Made by a program: the position numbers and the translations under genes. Under the pieces are notes generated by a model. It made no database searches, was not told the origin of the DNA, and saw nothing but the letters and a program-made list of their open reading frames with translations. Positions 26,617 through 47,896 of a DNA stretch of 64,000 bases are shown here, one piece after another (within the stretch, counting starts at the first letter, position 1; each line of letters starts with the position of its first letter). The stretch is from NCBI RefSeq assembly GCF_002892795.1, contig NZ_PJMC01000002.1, forward strand, positions 1 through 64,000. The letters run 5' to 3'. The stretch comes from Arthrobacter sp. AFG20. Lineage in GTDB: Bacteria; Actinomycetota; Actinomycetes; Actinomycetales; Micrococcaceae.

Positions 26617-26712
26617 TGGTTCCTCCCGCCAGGGACTTGGGGGGCATACCTGCCGGGAGGAACCAGAGAAAAGCTATCAAACCACTTGCGGCCAAACAAT
26701 TCGTGCACTAAT
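26617..26712 (-). promoter_or_regulatory. Promoter with palindrome and 5'-terminal RNA hairpin (copy 1)
   Basis: Read on the minus strand: imperfect palindrome ATTCGTGCACTAAT (as plus strand, 26699-26712), -35 TTGTTT (26699-26694), 17-base spacer, -10 TAGCTT (26676-26671), then five bases later a 12-bp perfect stem (26654-26665 with 26617-26628). The loop contains CCCCCC followed by AAG. The same arrangement with the same spacer occurs at 47807-47896. It lies about 90 bases before the AraC-type gene. Confidence 0.7.
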
Positions 26713-26957: not shown

Positions 26958-28334
26958 GCGAACGGGGGACTGTCCGATTTTCGGTGGATCCACGGTTGGC
27001 ATTTAGTTGATTCTTCCGTCGAAGCTGATGGCGAAGGCGTTCAGGGCCGGCTTCCATCGTGTGGCCCATCGTGCCCTGCCTTTGCCTGTCGGGTCCAGTG
27101 CCCGGGTGGCGAGGTAGAGGCATTTCAGGGCCGCCTGCTCGGTGGGGAAATGGCCCCGGGCCCTGACGGCGCGCCGGTAGCGGGCGTTGACGGATTCGAT
27201 GGCGTTGGTGCTGCAGATGACCCGCCGGATTTCGACGTCGTAGTCCAGGAACGGCACGAACTCGCTCCAGGCGTTCTCCCACAGCCGGGTGACCGCCGGG
27301 TACTGCCGGCCCCATTTGGTCGAGAACTCCACGAAGCGTTCCTTCGCTGCGGCCTCGGAAGGTGCCGTGTAGACCGGGCGCAGGTCCCGGGACATCTCGT
27401 CCCAGTACTGCCGGGCGGCGTAGCGGAAGGTGTTGCGAATCAGATGCACGATACAGGTCTGGACCACAGACCGCTCCCAGACCGTGGTGATGGCCTCGGG
27501 CAGGCCCTTGAGCCCGTCGCAGACCGTGATGCAGACGTCCTCGACGCCGCGGTTCTTGATTTCGGTCAGCACCGAGAGCCAGAACTTTGCCCCTTCGCCG
27601 CCGTCCCCGGCCCATAGCCCGAGGATGTCGCGTTCGCCGTTGACGCTGACGCCGATCGCGACGTAGACCGGCCGGTTGGTGACCTGCCCGTCGCGGACCT
27701 TGACGTGGATCGCGTCGATGAACACCACCGGGTAGACCCGGTCCAGGGGCCGATTCTGCCACTCGGTCATCTCGCCGATGACCTTCTCCGTGATCCGCGA
27801 GATGGTGTCCTTGGAGACCCTGGCACCGAACACCTCGGCGAAGTGGGCCGCGATCTCCCCGGTGGTGAGGCCCTTCGCGCTCAGTGACAACACGATCTCA
27901 TCCACGCCGGTCAGCCGCCGCTGGCGCTTCTTCACGATCTGCGGAGCGAAGGTCGAGCCGGTATCCCGCGGCACGTCGATCTCCACCGGCCCGATCTCGG
28001 TCAGCACGGTCTTCGTGCGGGTGCCGTTGCGGGAGTTCCCGCTCCCGCGCCCGGACACGTCGTGCTTTTCGTATCCGAGGTGTTCGTCCATTTCCGCTTC
28101 CAACGCGGTCTCCAGGACGTTTTTCGTGAGCCGGTTCAACAACCCGTCAGGGCCGACAAGGTCGATGCCCTGCTCCCTGGCCTGGGCCAGGAGCTGCTGT
28201 GCTAACTCTTGCTGATCCACATCAGTCGCCATGGGATCCATGGTGTCGCTCATGATCGGTCCTCCCCGCCAGGCAACGCCCGGCGTGTCAGGCCAACCAC
28301 GGATCCACCGTTATTCAGACAGTCCCGCGAACGG
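26958..28334 (-). mobile_element. IS256-family insertion sequence with 8-bp target duplication
   Basis: The element runs from 26966 to 28326. Its ends are imperfect inverted repeats: GGGACTGTCCGATTTTCGG at the left and GGGACTGTCTGAATAACGG at the right (read inward), both continuing into TGGATCC and GGTTGGC. It is flanked by identical 8-bp direct repeats GCGAACGG (26958-26965 and 28327-28334), as expected for IS256-family transposition. It carries one transposase gene with no visible damage, so it may still be active. Confidence 0.93.
27003..28253 (-). CDS. IS256-family transposase
   Basis: A 416-residue mutator-type DDE transposase. Visible marks: GYEKHDVSGRGSGNSRNGT near the N-terminus, the first Asp in VVFIDAIHVKVRDGQ, the second Asp in VCDGLKGLPEAI and the Glu in CSTNAIESVNARYRR. 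Length is normal for the family and no frameshift is seen. The gene fills the element between the inverted repeats. Confidence 0.95.
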   Translation of the reverse strand: MSDTMDPMATDVDQQELAQQLLAQAREQGIDLVGPDGLLNRLTKNVLETALEAEMDEHLGYEKHDVSGRGSGNSRNGTRTKTVLTEIGPVEIDVPRDTGSTFAPQIVKKRQRRLTGVDEIVLSLSAKGLTTGEIAAHFAEVFGARVSKDTISRITEKVIGEMTEWQNRPLDRVYPVVFIDAIHVKVRDGQVTNRPVYVAIGVSVNGERDILGLWAGDGGEGAKFWLSVLTEIKNRGVEDVCITVCDGLKGLPEAITTVWERSVVQTCIVHLIRNTFRYAARQYWDEMSRDLRPVYTAPSEAAAKERFVEFSTKWGRQYPAVTRLWENAWSEFVPFLDYDVEIRRVICSTNAIESVNARYRRAVRARGHFPTEQAALKCLYLATRALDPTGKGRARWATRWKPALNAFAISFDGRIN

Positions 28335-29058: not shown

Positions 29059-29187
29059 TGGGGCGGGTTAGCGCCGGGGTCCGGGCCCACGATTTGCGCT
29101 GTTCAGCGCCGGTGTTGGTGTGGTTGAGCGCCACCTGTAAGGCTCCTTCCACCGCGTGACGGCCACGTGGTGGAAGGAGTACCGGTA

Positions 29188-30744
29188 ATGGTACGGAAGA
29201 TCAGGGCGAAGCTCGTCTTACAGTTGCGCAACCAGGGCCTGTCCGGCAGAGCGATCTCGCTTGCTCAGGGCATGTCCAGGCACAGCGTTCAGGCGGTGAT
29301 CGATGCTGCGGATCAGCTCGGGCTCGGTTGGGACGACGTTGCGGAGAAATCTGAGGGCGAGGTGTATCTGGCGCTGTTTCCCGGCCGCGGGGTGCGGGAG
29401 AGCGTGTTCGCCCAGCCGGACTGGGTCCAGGTGCACCGTGAGCTGGCAAGGGTCGGGGTGACGTTGAAGCTGCTGCACCAGGAGTATCTTGACGGGTGCA
29501 GTCGGGCCGGGCAGGCGGCGATGAGTTATGACCGGTTCTGCAGGCTTTACGGCGATTACGCCAACGTCACTGGCGCGTCGTCTCGGGTCGGGCATAAGGC
29601 CGGCCGCAGCGTCGAGGTCGACTGGTCCGGGCCTACGATGCAGGTCATTGACCCGGCAACGGGAGAGATCTCGAAGGTGTATCTGTTCGTCGCGTGCCTG
29701 CCGTTCAGCAGGTATGCGTTCGTGGAGGCGACGTTGGATATGCGGCAGGAGTCATGGCTGCGCGCGCATGCGGCGATGTTCGCATTCTTCGGCGGCACGG
29801 TCCCGCGGCTCGTCCCGGACAACCTCAAGACCGGGGTGATCTCTCACCCGCGCGAGGGCGAAGTCGTCCTCAACGACGCCTACCGGGAGATGGCGGCGCA
29901 TTATTCGGCGGCGGTACTACCGGGCCGGGTGCGGCACCCGAAAGACAAAGCGAGCGTCGAAAACACTGTTTCGCACATCGCCACTTGGGTGATTGCGGGT
30001 CTGAGGCAGGAGCAGTTCACCAGCCTGGCGCAGCTGCGGGCCCGGATTCGGGAGCAGATCGATGCCTACAACCGACAGCCGTTCCAGAAGCGGGAGGGCT
30101 CCCGGCTGAGCGTGTTCACGGCCGAGGAGAAGCCGCTGCTGCAACCGTTGCCGGCGGTGGCTTTCGAGATCAGCACCTGGACCTATGGGCGCAAAGTGGG
30201 CCGGAACGGACACGTGGTCTGGGCAAAAAACTTCTACTCCGTCCCGTTCACCCACATCGGCGCGCGCGTTGATCTTCGCGTCACGGACACCATGCTCGAG
30301 ATTTATCGGGGTGATGAGCGCCTGACCAGCCACCTGCTGGTGCCCGTGACGACGACGAACCAGTATCGGACGAACGAAGCCGACCTGCCCGAGGGACACG
30401 GCTGGCAAGCTTGGGACCGAGCCCGGATCGACGCCTGGGCGTTACGGCTGGGACCGGCGACCGGGACCGTGATCGAGAAGATCTTCGAGTCTGCCCGCAT
30501 CGAGGAAGCTGGCTACGACCCAGCCCTGGCGGTCCTGCGCCTGTCTCGCAGGTTCTCACCAGCCCGGGTGGAAGCCGCATGCCAGCTCGCGCTGCGCGGG
30601 CCGATACGATCGCCCCGTTACGCCCACCTGCGGCCGATCCTGGACACCGGGCAGGACAAAACCGGGCACGTCGAGGAGCCTGATGCCGACGATGGCGGCG
30701 GATACGTGCGCGGCAGCTCCTACTACGCAGGAGGGACCCGATGA
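29188..30744 (+). CDS. istA: IS21-family transposase IstA
   Basis: A 518-residue transposase from ATG 29188, preceded by GAAGGAG. It has an N-terminal helix-turn-helix region (GLSGRAISLAQGMSRHSVQA). The rve-type catalytic core shows Asp in VEVDWSGPTMQ, Asp in LVPDNLKTGV and Glu in HPKDKASVENTV. The C-terminal part contains the YGRKVGRNGHV beta domain. No frameshift is visible. It acts together with the IstB ATPase, whose start overlaps its stop. Confidence 0.95.
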   Translation: MVRKIRAKLVLQLRNQGLSGRAISLAQGMSRHSVQAVIDAADQLGLGWDDVAEKSEGEVYLALFPGRGVRESVFAQPDWVQVHRELARVGVTLKLLHQEYLDGCSRAGQAAMSYDRFCRLYGDYANVTGASSRVGHKAGRSVEVDWSGPTMQVIDPATGEISKVYLFVACLPFSRYAFVEATLDMRQESWLRAHAAMFAFFGGTVPRLVPDNLKTGVISHPREGEVVLNDAYREMAAHYSAAVLPGRVRHPKDKASVENTVSHIATWVIAGLRQEQFTSLAQLRARIREQIDAYNRQPFQKREGSRLSVFTAEEKPLLQPLPAVAFEISTWTYGRKVGRNGHVVWAKNFYSVPFTHIGARVDLRVTDTMLEIYRGDERLTSHLLVPVTTTNQYRTNEADLPEGHGWQAWDRARIDAWALRLGPATGTVIEKIFESARIEEAGYDPALAVLRLSRRFSPARVEAACQLALRGPIRSPRYAHLRPILDTGQDKTGHVEEPDADDGGGYVRGSSYYAGGTR

Positions 30745-31490
30745 GCCGCCTGGACACGGAAACCAAACGCAAGCTGCGGGAGATGAATGCGGGCGAGCTG
30801 CTGGAGGCCATCGATACCCAAGACGAGACGCTGAGCATTAGCCTGCCGTTCGAAGATCGTCTCCGGCTGGTCGTCGATGACGCCTACGCATCGTTCACCC
30901 ATGCCAAAGTCACCGGCCTGATCCGGCGGGCGGGGCTGCGTTACCCGAACGCTGACCTGCGCCGCATCGACCTCCTTGACGAGCGCGGGCTTGACCGGCC
31001 GCTGTTGAGCCAGCTCGGCACCTGCTCGTTCGTGGCCAGGCACCAGAACGTTGTCTTCCAAGGGTTCACCGGGTCGGGGAAGTCCTACCTGGGATGCGCG
31101 ATTGCTAAGCGCGCCTGCGAACACCGCATCCGCGCCCATTACGTCCGCATGCCCGACCTCGAGGAAGCCTGGGTCGCCGCCCAAGACACCCCTGGTGGAT
31201 CCGGCAAGTTCCTGCGCAAATATGCGGCATTTACCCTGCTCGTCATTGATGAGTGGCTGCTGGATCGACCTACGGAATCGCTGCGCACCATGCTGCTGGA
31301 ATTGATGGAACGCCGCTACGGGGAGACGTCAACAGTATTCTGCACCCAGTACTCGCAGAAGGACTGGCACCAGCGGCTCGGCTCCGGCGTTCACGCCGAC
31401 GCGATCATGGACCGGATCATCCACAACACGATCTGGGTCGAGACAGGCAGCTACAACATGCGCGAGCACACGGCACTCGTAACCGCCTAG
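30741..31490 (+). CDS. istB: IS21-family helper ATPase IstB
   Basis: A 249-residue AAA+ ATPase needed for IS21 transposition. Walker A reads GFTGSGKSYLGCAIA and Walker B reads FTLLVIDEWLLD; the sensor-like VFCTQYSQKDWHQRLG follows. The start overlaps the istA stop (ATGA). Length and motifs are complete. Confidence 0.95.
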   Translation: MSRLDTETKRKLREMNAGELLEAIDTQDETLSISLPFEDRLRLVVDDAYASFTHAKVTGLIRRAGLRYPNADLRRIDLLDERGLDRPLLSQLGTCSFVARHQNVVFQGFTGSGKSYLGCAIAKRACEHRIRAHYVRMPDLEEAWVAAQDTPGGSGKFLRKYAAFTLLVIDEWLLDRPTESLRTMLLELMERRYGETSTVFCTQYSQKDWHQRLGSGVHADAIMDRIIHNTIWVETGSYNMREHTALVTA

Positions 31491-31600
31491 CAACCGTCAC
31501 GGAGGGCGTCAGCGGCGCCAGGCCATACGACCGCTGGCGCTCTCTCGCACGAACCCCGGCGCTGAACCGCACGAACAGGTGGCGCTCAAAGCTTCAAATA

Positions 31601-32266
31601 CTCAGAACAGGGCTCGCACGTCTTGACAAGGGCGTGCACGTCGGCCGCCCGGAGGGCATTTCAGCCTAGTGCAAAGAAATCAGGGTGATGATTTTCCCTC
31701 GTTCACCGACGCCAGCCATCCCATGCTCTGGCCCGAAGGATGCCCCACCCCTCAGCCACGCTCCCCGCTTGACGGCGTAAGAGAGAACAGAGCGTCCACG
31801 CGCCTGCATGGAATGATGCTTTGACGGCAAAGGTCTGCACCCATCGAAACCAATAACGCTTCTTCTCGTCCTGAAGAGCCCTAGACTTTTCAACGTTCCC
31901 CGTTCCACCCCGCCGGCTCCCCCATACCGGCGGGGTGGGATCTTCACCGACCAGGCGCGCTGCCTCGGCAACCCAGGCCGGGTGGGCGGTTTACTGTCCT
32001 CAGTGGAGGGCTAAGGACAAAACGCCCTTGGAGTAATTCAAGAAGCCGCTCGCTTTCAAGAGGATCCGGACATCAGATCCGTCATCGAGCCCGGGGGTGC
32101 TGGCCGGCTGTCTGGAGAACGCCCGGGCAACACAAGCTTGCTGAAGTCTCTACCGAGGCCGTTCCGGAGGTAACCCAGCATTGAACTGCACGAACACGCC
32201 TAATTGCCCGGGCCGCGAATACCTCATTCGCGCTACTCGAGGGCAGCTTCAGACCTGGGGACCTCT
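31601..32266. other. Intergenic region with one strong hairpin
   Basis: No gene supported. A perfect 12-bp stem, CCACCCCGCCGG (31904-31915) with CCGGCGGGGTGG (31926-31937), encloses a 10-base loop; no T run follows, so it may be a terminator remnant or a protein site. A minus-strand open frame across 31666-31971 is rich in Arg and Gly, lacks a start signal and is not believed. Confidence 0.5.
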
Positions 32267-33058
32267 ATGAGCGACCTTGGCCTGGCGGTGATAATCGAGG
32301 ACGACGCCGACATGCGCAATCTCTTGGAGGCGGTCCTCCTGCAGTCAGGATTTGAAGTCTGTTCAGCGGCGCATGGAAGGGCGGGCGTTGAACTCGTCCG
32401 ACGTCAAAATCCCAACGTCGTCACGGTAGATGTTGGCCTCCCGGACATTGACGGCTTCGAAGTCCTGAGGCGAATTCGCGATTTCAGCGACGCCTACGTT
32501 GTCATGCTGACGGGCAGGCATGAAGAGGGCGATGTTTTAACGGCATTTCACGGTGGGGCAGATGATTACATCACCAAACCGTTCCGTCCGCGTGAGTTGC
32601 GGGCACGGCTTATGGCCGTGATGCGTAGACCTCGTTACGCATCCTCCAGTATGGCCCTGCCCGTGCCTGATCCCATGCCTTCGTCACCCGGGGAAGTATA
32701 CGATGAGCTGGTCATCCGGCACAACGGGTTGGAACTTAATCACAAGACCCGGACAGTCATGGTTCGAGGGTCCGCCATAAGTCTGACACGAAGCGAGTTC
32801 ACTCTCCTTCACGAGCTGTTACGTGTGGCAGGAAGGGTCTGCTCCAGGACGCGTCTCGTTCGAGTACTCCACACTGAGTACAGCCGGTACGGCATGTACA
32901 TCAGTCAAGTCGATGAACGGGCAGTAGAGGCCCATATCGGTAATCTTCGCCGCAAGCTAAGCGATAACCAGCAGTACCCGCGCTGGGTAGAGACGGTGCG
33001 CGGTGTGGGATATCGGCTCGCACCCGTCAAAGCACACCCGCAGAACGGGGCAACGTGA
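32267..33058 (+). CDS. OmpR-family response regulator
   Basis: A 263-residue two-component response regulator. The receiver domain has the acidic pair in IIEDDAD (9-15), phospho-acceptor Asp55 in VTVDVGLPDIDG and the conserved Lys in ITKPFRPREL. The C-terminal winged helix reads ISLTRSEFTLLHELL and VEAHIGNLRRKL, ending WVETVRGVGYRL. GGGGA before ATG 32267 sets the start. No histidine kinase gene is adjacent, so it is an orphan. A linker of about 40 residues between the domains is longer than usual. Confidence 0.93.
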   Translation: MSDLGLAVIIEDDADMRNLLEAVLLQSGFEVCSAAHGRAGVELVRRQNPNVVTVDVGLPDIDGFEVLRRIRDFSDAYVVMLTGRHEEGDVLTAFHGGADDYITKPFRPRELRARLMAVMRRPRYASSSMALPVPDPMPSSPGEVYDELVIRHNGLELNHKTRTVMVRGSAISLTRSEFTLLHELLRVAGRVCSRTRLVRVLHTEYSRYGMYISQVDERAVEAHIGNLRRKLSDNQQYPRWVETVRGVGYRLAPVKAHPQNGAT

Positions 33059-47369: not shown

Positions 47370-47672
47370 TTAAGCGTGAGGCAGTGGATCCGTAACCACA
47401 TGGACGCCGTCGCCCTCATGGATAAGACGCCGCCCTGCTCCAGCATCCAACCAGATCCAGAAAGCGGACCCGTCGGGCATCCATTCGTCCAGGACCCCGT
47501 CAAGCGCGGGACGGCCACAGCTTTGGAGGCGGACGCGACTTCCGGCTGGAAGAGTTTCCGGTCCTGCAATCCACACATCGCGCCTTTGAAAGTTTTCGCC
47601 ATCATCGGGGGCGGATTCAGTCTGCCCCGGAGAACTCGCAGGAAGGCCCGGGAATCTTTCTCGTTCTGCCAA
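47370..47672 (-). CDS. Small protein of unknown function (VLDEWMPDG/GAGRR family)
   Basis: A 100-residue protein, third member of the family at 7937-8185 and 24379-24627. The core is DGVLDEWMPDGSAFWIWL followed by GAGRRLIHEGD. The frame is open to 47879 without an ATG at a useful place. TTG at 47672 has GGAAGGAAGG eight bases upstream and is the best start; GTG at 47576 would give only the conserved domain. The promoter-hairpin unit at 47807-47896 lies upstream on the same strand. No named domain. Confidence 0.6.
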   Translation of the reverse strand: MAERERFPGLPASSPGQTESAPDDGENFQRRDVWIAGPETLPAGSRVRLQSCGRPALDGVLDEWMPDGSAFWIWLDAGAGRRLIHEGDGVHVVTDPLPHA

Positions 47673-47806: not shown

Positions 47807-47896
47807 GTTCCGCCCGGAATGGATTGGGGGCGCCACTCCGGGCGGAACTGAAACAAGCTATCAAACAGTTGTTGCTCAAACAATTCGTGCACGAAT
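47807..47896 (-). promoter_or_regulatory. Promoter with palindrome and 5'-terminal RNA hairpin (copy 2)
   Basis: Read on the minus strand: perfect palindrome ATTCGTGCACGAAT (47883-47896), -35 TTGTTT (47883-47878), 17-base spacer, -10 TAGCTT (47860-47855), then six bases later the 12-bp stem 47837-47848 with 47807-47818. The loop contains GCGCCCCCAAU. The layout is the same as at 26617-26712. It probably drives the small-protein gene (47370-47672) or a free small RNA. Confidence 0.7.

Follow-up and report, generated by a model that had tools for sequence, protein, structure and literature searches.

A C-rich-loop hairpin apparently maintained at the putative 5' end of several mRNAs in Arthrobacter and related soil bacteria

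A GC-rich RNA hairpin with CCCCC(C)A in its loop seems to be a genuine, evolutionarily maintained structure, located at or near the start of several mRNAs of soil bacteria. Three such hairpins occur in the window, i.e., the whole stretch of 64,000 nucleotides from Arthrobacter sp. AFG20 analysed here, and searches by covariance models, patterns and BLAST brought the total to 11 leaders, with relatives in six other genomes, one of which belongs to another genus. Nine of these leaders are preceded by a common upstream block and two are of the copy 3 kind. Comparison at the sequence level shows the hairpin itself, the covariation of its stem, the conservation of its loop, its position behind a -10-like hexamer and the diversity of the genes downstream. 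With slightly better than even confidence (probability about 0.55), we consider the hairpin a 5'-terminal element of mRNA leaders, the C-rich loop of which is read in trans. The element constitutes a defined, testable RNA motif, consisting of a 14-21-pair stem near +1 and a CCCCC(C)A loop with no match at threshold to Rfam 15 in the window. Within soil actinobacteria, it connects regulators to an EAL protein, to a flavin reductase and to small proteins that are uncharacterised. Provided that the loop has a dedicated partner, it would reveal a post-transcriptional network in bacteria about whose factors of this kind little has been learned.

An earlier note on this DNA had described a two-copy element on the minus strand, with a shared stem of 10 pairs and a single compensatory change. 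Both hairpins (copies 1 and 2, Table 1) were confirmed, their folding energies of -31.8 and -32.1 kcal/mol, respectively, being reached by none of 200 dinucleotide shuffles. The stem is indeed common to both copies and extends over 15 aligned pairs instead of 10, and compensation does occur, at three pairs altered on both sides instead of one; one pair is altered on one side only, and one aligned pair is broken in copy 1. Taken alone, the covariation between copies 1 and 2 is weak (60 of 500 shuffles are as good). The count of two copies was too low, a third hairpin being present on the plus strand.

Table 1. Coordinates of the features discussed in the text. Positions are those of the window; sets of loci from other genomes are given at the end. 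R1, covariance model built from copies 1 and 2; R2, covariance model of the eight aligned hairpins.
Feature	Position	Strand	Remarks
Copy 1 hairpin, loop GCCCCCCAA	26617..26665	-	Fold z -5.1; R2 49.6 bits (training member); orthologue in G036
Copy 1 promoter/operator-like block GTGCACGAATTGTTTG	26671..26708	-	Block related to that of copy 2 and of seven further leaders
Copy 1 -35-like TTGTTT	26694-26699	-	
Copy 1 -10-like TAGCTT	26671-26676	-	
AraC-type regulator, 350 aa	25474..26526	-	First ORF after copy 1; Pfam HTH_18 3.8e-09
HVTGD-type small ORF	24968-24624	-	After AraC-type gene; overlaps the next ORF
DEWMPDG-type small ORF	24627-24379	-	After AraC-type gene; overlaps the preceding ORF
Copy 2 hairpin, loop CGCCCCCAAU, 16 bp stem	47807..47848	-	Fold z -6.0; R2 60.2 bits (training member); orthologues in G156 and G191
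Copy 2 promoter/operator-like block	47855..47892	-	
Copy 2 -35-like TTGTTT	47878-47883	-	
Copy 2 -10-like TAGCTT	47855-47860	-	
DEWMPDG-type small ORF	47370..47672	-	After copy 2; TTG start here, ATG in G191, frameshifted in G156
Copy 3 hairpin, loop CUCCCCCAUA, 15 bp stem	31902..31941	+	R1 29.8 bits; also found by pattern; fold z -4.7; orthologue in G203 with rebuilt stem
Copy 3 -10-like TAGACT	31882..31887	+	Kept in the G203 orthologue
OmpR/PhoB-type response regulator	32267..33058	+	After copy 3; Pfam Response_reg 5.7e-27, Trans_reg_C 2.2e-18
Small-ORF set			Hairpin CCCGCCTGG-CCCCCAA-CCAGGCGGGA; L125, L127, L128, L129, L130, L133, L108, L153, L154, L155
sir2 set			CCCCCAAU hairpin behind -10-like TATATT/TATCTT, near convergent sir2 gene; L132, L134, L157, L158, L100
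thiC set			CCCCCAA-loop hairpin beside thiC, eight genomes; L102, L103, L116, L118, L121, L070, L152, L156

Copy 3 is devoid of the upstream block common to copies 1 and 2. It was found by R1 in a search of the window, the whole-genome search with the same model having missed it, and by the pattern GTTCCNCCCN{4,14}CCCCCN{4,20}GGGNGG, whose three matches in the 4.9-Mb genome are the three window copies. Over 206 genomes of the genus, this pattern yielded 12 matches in nine genomes, five of them members (three in the own genome, one in G156 and one in G191), and its reversed control yielded matches in five genomes; upon re-scoring, four of the five members showed a stem score of 12.5-15 around the C-run, as compared to 0-6 for the other seven matches. 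A blastn search with the copy 3 region matched two of the 206 genomes, the own one included, and led to the orthologue in G203. The stems of these two orthologues are built differently, with the TAGACT hexamer and CUCCCCCA kept in both, and the distance from TAGACT to the stem is 14 nt in copy 3 and 7 nt in the G203 orthologue.

Eight of the 206 genus genomes gave a match with R1 at E<=0.01, among which G156 and G191, with relatives of copy 2, and G036, with a relative of copy 1, are members; a second hairpin found by R1 in G036 is preceded by the same upstream block. The other four genus matches were not counted as members, one of them (L070) exhibiting a CCCCCAA loop beside thiC. Depending on the genome, the surroundings are retained to a different extent: in G156, 17 kb match the window at 89-91%, G036 retains the AraC-type gene together with its leader, and G191 keeps a hairpin-bearing block of 0.8 kb at 84%, the downstream genes of the window not following there and the next match corresponding to window positions 38769-38505. 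The combined pattern GTGCACN{0,2}AATTGTTN{36,64}CCCCCA occurs at six places in four of the 206 genomes, all of them members (two in the own genome, one in G156, two in G036 and one in G191), with no control matches; the sites of G072 and G203, which are more diverged, escape it.

Model R2, which comprises the hairpin only and no upstream sequence, gave a match in 36 of the 206 genus genomes and, at E<=0.02, in 15 of 395 genomes of the family (19 rows). All 16 rows of the family sample outside the own genome were inspected, and new rows were counted as leaders only when they possessed the upstream block. The new leaders occur in G222, which belongs to another genus, in G072, and at a second site in G203, and they fold at z -4.1, -3.2 and -5.5, respectively. 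The covariance-model search of Arthrobacter genomes, which the earlier note had put forward as a check, found relatives with covariation, several rows being orthologues and not independent events. Forms related to those of the window are rare (six of the 206 genus genomes, the own one included). Against plasmids, blastn with the copy 1 and copy 2 regions gave no matches, and a longer AraC query gave a single one, of 71% over 9% of the query, on plasmid p2MP, 8 kb of which contain no CCCCCA hairpin. A loose contig-wide pattern with 17 fixed bases retrieved 59 stretches distributed over many phyla, without any recognised Micrococcaceae, which were presumed to be chance hits.

The pairing was assessed in an alignment of eight hairpins (A7), the members of which were found by sequence or by models favouring pairing, several being orthologues. 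In this alignment, 94.4% of the 126 cells are paired versus 77.9% in shuffles, double changes occur in eight of the 21 pairs (19 cells), six of the 21 pairs having letters in one sequence only, and the covariation score amounts to 0.393; not one of the five measures was attained in 500 shuffles, and the pairing dropped to 34-53% when the partner was shifted by 1-3 columns. A7 is a plain MAFFT alignment, not fitted to the structure, and was preferred to A6 and A8 for its in-register stems; no count or model rests on A6, A8 or A10, in which the stems are out of register. Among the 11 leaders, the number of predicted stem pairs ranges from 14 to 21. The predicted loops measure 6 to 11 nt, and the nine hairpins folded alone have energies of -22 to -41 kcal/mol. 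The loop core remains constant while the stems diverge, and consists of five or six C followed by one or two A.

The constancy of the loop was compared to that obtained with a single decoy, R3, built on the same stems as R2 with the loop core mirrored to AACCCCC. R2 is derived from members, so that searches with it favour pairing and C-rich loops. R3 gave a match in 12 of the same 206 genomes. After removal from each model of the eight training rows and one reverse-strand row, R2 retained 34 further rows out of 43, of which 27 have a CCCCCAA loop, and R3 retained seven out of 16, none of them with an AACCCCC loop. The 27 rows are inflated by orthologues and correspond to about seven independent settings; the remaining seven R2 rows, devoid of the CCCCCAA loop, belong to G018, G063, G114, G007 (twice), G056 and G139. 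The retention of a loop on a paired stem whose letters change suggests that some molecule recognizes it.

According to their surroundings, the 27 CCCCCAA rows can be subdivided into two leaders of the block-bearing type (G072 and G203), ten located ahead of a small ORF, four near sir2, eight beside thiC, and three others. In the small-ORF set, the hairpin precedes by 25-28 nt a small ORF mostly starting with V/MGLR, the frame of which stops after 14-19 codons in three of the ten cases, and an extended -10-like TGGTACGGT is found upstream in five. The sir2 set extends to five genomes of two genera, the fifth, from another genus, coming from the family search, and its hairpin represents a candidate free small RNA. 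In the thiC set, the hairpins look like terminators in their position; in the five loci whose ORFs were examined, the flank opposite thiC is occupied by a hydrolase ORF. When a TANNNT hexamer was sought with a looser spacing, allowing 3 nt on either side of the computed start of the stem, it was present in all five sir2 loci, in six of the ten small-ORF loci, in one of the eight thiC loci and in none of the three others; three of the four failures in the small-ORF set have a stem scanned outward past its core, and L133 is without such a hexamer. Given the terminator-like position of the thiC hairpins, the single locus with TANNNT spacing among them and the lack of such spacing in the three others, the loop is not only a feature of 5' ends.

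Just 5' of the hairpins of copies 1 and 2, the upstream block reads GTGCACGAATTGTTTG-N10-GTTTGATAGCTT, and is also given as GATTnGTGCACGAATTGTTTG-N10-GTTTGATAGCTT. Its 16-mer, with up to three mismatches allowed, occurs at only two places in the window, both exact (shuffle mean 0.35; two or more places in 3 of 100 shuffles). A -35-like TTGTTT and a -10-like TAGCTT separated by 17 nt were read by eye, and a strict sigma-70 scan found no promoter at any of the three window sites, which suggests that the promoter is weak or activator-dependent. In all nine block-bearing leaders, AATTGTT is located 36-40 nt before the stem (36-37 nt in G222, G072 and the second site of G203). Ten of the 11 leaders have a TANNNT hexamer at a distance of 6-8 nt ahead of the stem, the exception being copy 3 with 14 nt, for a background of 762 out of 127880 window positions (0.6%). 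This spacing places the stem probably at +1, and we infer that transcription starts at its first base. The selected RNA structure at about +1 of a shared promoter, as proposed in the earlier note, is supported by the covariation across the eight aligned hairpins, by the orthologues, which retain loop and pairing despite changed stem letters, and by the same upstream block in the three further members obtained with the hairpin-only model. A dyad CACGAATTGTTCGTG, which is perfect in G222 and in the second site of G036, is a possible operator and overlaps with the -35-like hexamer. Four leaders, from three genomes, have MarR-type genes within a few kb, whereas no such gene was matched in the window or in the stretches from G156, G191 and G222; we presume that these MarR proteins and the CACGAATTGTTCGTG site resemble OhrR.

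An ORF follows on the same strand behind 10 of the 11 leaders, that of G156 being frameshifted. In the window, the leader measures about 137 nt, counted from the stem, in copy 1 (AraC-type regulator), about 176 nt in copy 2 (DEWMPDG-type ORF) and about 365 nt in copy 3 (response regulator). The AraC-type regulator is also found behind the hairpin in G036 and the OmpR-type response regulator in G203, and the other genes comprise an HVTGD-type small protein at the second site of G203, a PepSY protein at that of G036 (above the NCBIfam cut-off and just below that of Pfam), a flavin reductase in G072, with only 31 nt between hairpin and ORF, and an EAL protein with a sub-threshold GAF match in G222. 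The HVTGD-type and DEWMPDG-type proteins have no Pfam or NCBIfam match above cut-off, and relatives of both occur directly behind hairpins elsewhere. Their motifs, HVTGD-like and DEWMPDGSxFWIWLDxGAGRRL, recur near hairpins. AraC as an obligatory partner of the hairpin was rejected: homologues at E<=1e-20, with identities down to 41%, occur in five of seven hairpin-bearing and two of 13 other genomes, and in neither G191 nor G072. A further hairpin of G222, with loop UCCCCCAAU (L141:1347-1386, minus strand), lies about 0.1 kb past the 3' end of an AraC-type gene.

According to the mechanism proposed for these leaders, transcription from a weak, operator-controlled promoter would begin at or next to the first stem base, and the mRNA would thus be headed by a GC-rich hairpin displaying the CCCCC(C)A(A) loop core. 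The stem would shield the 5' end of the mRNA from 5'-dependent decay, and a trans-acting partner, either an RNA-binding protein or a G-rich RNA, would bind the loop and tune decay, or the access of ribosomes, for the mRNAs of the group. Pairing of the loop with its own leader was rejected, its complementarity to the downstream 350 nt being no better than that of mononucleotide shuffles in all 11 leaders, which points to a partner acting in trans. Sequestration of the Shine-Dalgarno sequence by the 3' arm was also discarded, no start codon following the GGAGG of copy 1 and copy 2 having GGCGG at this place, as read by eye. With no loop-leader pairing, no U tract and no suitably placed start codon, a cap-like 5' hairpin with a loop read in trans remains. 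Stem-loops of the ompA type, which stabilise mRNAs from their 5' end and are not known to need a particular loop, are similarly strong hairpins located at the 5' end or close to it, where they should hinder 5'-dependent decay. That the present hairpins are generic stabilisers of this sort, for which any strong stem would suffice and the loop would have no partner, agrees with the very stable stems beginning near the putative +1; it seems decidedly unlikely, in that the loop core, unlike that of ompA-type structures, is kept across unrelated stems and genes, and CCCCCAA loops recur on unrelated stems when mirrored loops do not (27 versus 0 further rows). A DNA operator, in which a dimeric repressor would bind the near-perfect dyad at +1 and the RNA hairpin would be incidental, is still harder to credit, even though such a dyad is a usual repressor site, symmetric recognition would also produce changes in both arms, and the MarR-type genes near four leaders could be quoted in its favour. 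Both arms differ between the copy 3 orthologues, the predicted loop varies in size and its kept part is an asymmetric C-run between the arms, and the separate operator-like dyad already overlaps the -35 hexamer. A small mobile repeat, or else an attenuator or intrinsic terminator, as the GC-rich hairpin in an intergenic region and the nearby insertion sequences might evoke, deserves hardly any credence: the three window copies showed no terminator-like site, the 14 bases following each of the 11 hairpins are free of runs of three T, the pattern matches of the 4.9-Mb genome all fall within the window, and the orthologues keep their flanks, unlike a transposed repeat.

The earlier note had left the choice between a 5'-UTR element and a small RNA, with 6C RNA as a possible likeness; the former fits better, a same-strand ORF following all three window copies, and the likeness to 6C did not hold. 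As far as the accessible text of the sources goes, 6C RNA is built of two stem-loops with some six C per loop (PMC4046766), the C-rich loops of 6C and B11 pair with G tracts at ribosome-binding sites (PMC10470900; PMC4046766), and either loop of Mycobacterium abscessus B11 is enough to repress an mRNA with six G in its 5' UTR (PMC10470900). The present hairpins share with these actinobacterial RNAs a C-rich apical loop on a stem, which could in principle pair with G tracts, and differ from 6C, a free RNA of about 100 nt in the available description, by a single CCCCC(C)A hairpin fronting a protein-coding leader. No Rfam family matched at gathering score in the whole window, 6C is missing from the Rfam matches obtained at E<=10 in the surroundings of all three copies, a scan of the window for CCCCCA-loop hairpins returned three, one per copy, and a scan relaxed to CCCC, over the 4 kb surrounding copy 1, returned that hairpin only. 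A short RNA of the 6C/B11 type, made from the leader and pairing through its C-rich loop with G tracts at the ribosome-binding sites of other mRNAs, is accordingly described here as unlikely, in spite of the B11 precedent and of the sir2-neighbour hairpins with their -10-like hexamers, which speak for it; besides the single hairpin per copy and the absence of an Rfam match, no U-tract terminator follows the hairpin, and the downstream ORF can be very close, as in G072. Pairing with G tracts could operate if the hairpin were released as a small RNA. Another comparison is offered by the ANTAR-target RNAs, reported in Arthrobacter in the accessible part of PMC8164766, which similarly represent a leader structure common to many unrelated mRNAs and are read by a trans-acting protein; compared by definition, they contain two hairpins with hexanucleotide loops having A1 and G4, unlike the single hairpin with a C-run loop of 6-11 nt described here (PMC8164766). 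Nothing recognised as a CCCCC(C)A-loop leader motif was found in the searched literature, outside of which subscription papers mostly lie.

Beyond the 5'-terminal leader element with a loop read in trans, it is tempting, although tentative and in our opinion more doubtful than probable, to envisage a post-transcriptional network of the Micrococcaceae, in which mRNAs unrelated to each other, perhaps together with a free small RNA, would begin with a hairpin whose CCCCCAA loop is read by one dedicated RNA-binding protein or G-rich RNA. A single factor would then target the block-bearing leaders, the GLR-type small-ORF leaders and the sir2-neighbour RNA, and the network would represent a functional counterpart of the Csr-type recognition of loops in bacteria not known to possess CsrA and Hfq.

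Two insertion elements occur near the hairpins. An element at 26963-28329, bounded by imperfect inverted ends of 38 nt and encoding a transposase of the Mutator family (27003-28253, Pfam Transposase_mut), sits between the promoter region of copy 1 and a TerC gene, the gap between these two being only about 0.2 kb in G036. A two-ORF element at 29093-31575 (ORFs 29167-30744 and 30741-31490, Mu-transpos_C_2, 46-nt imperfect inverted ends), which we take to be IS21-like, seems to cut the start of the TerC gene; the TerC Pfam match begins at profile position 60 in the window, and the TerC ORF is longer in G036.
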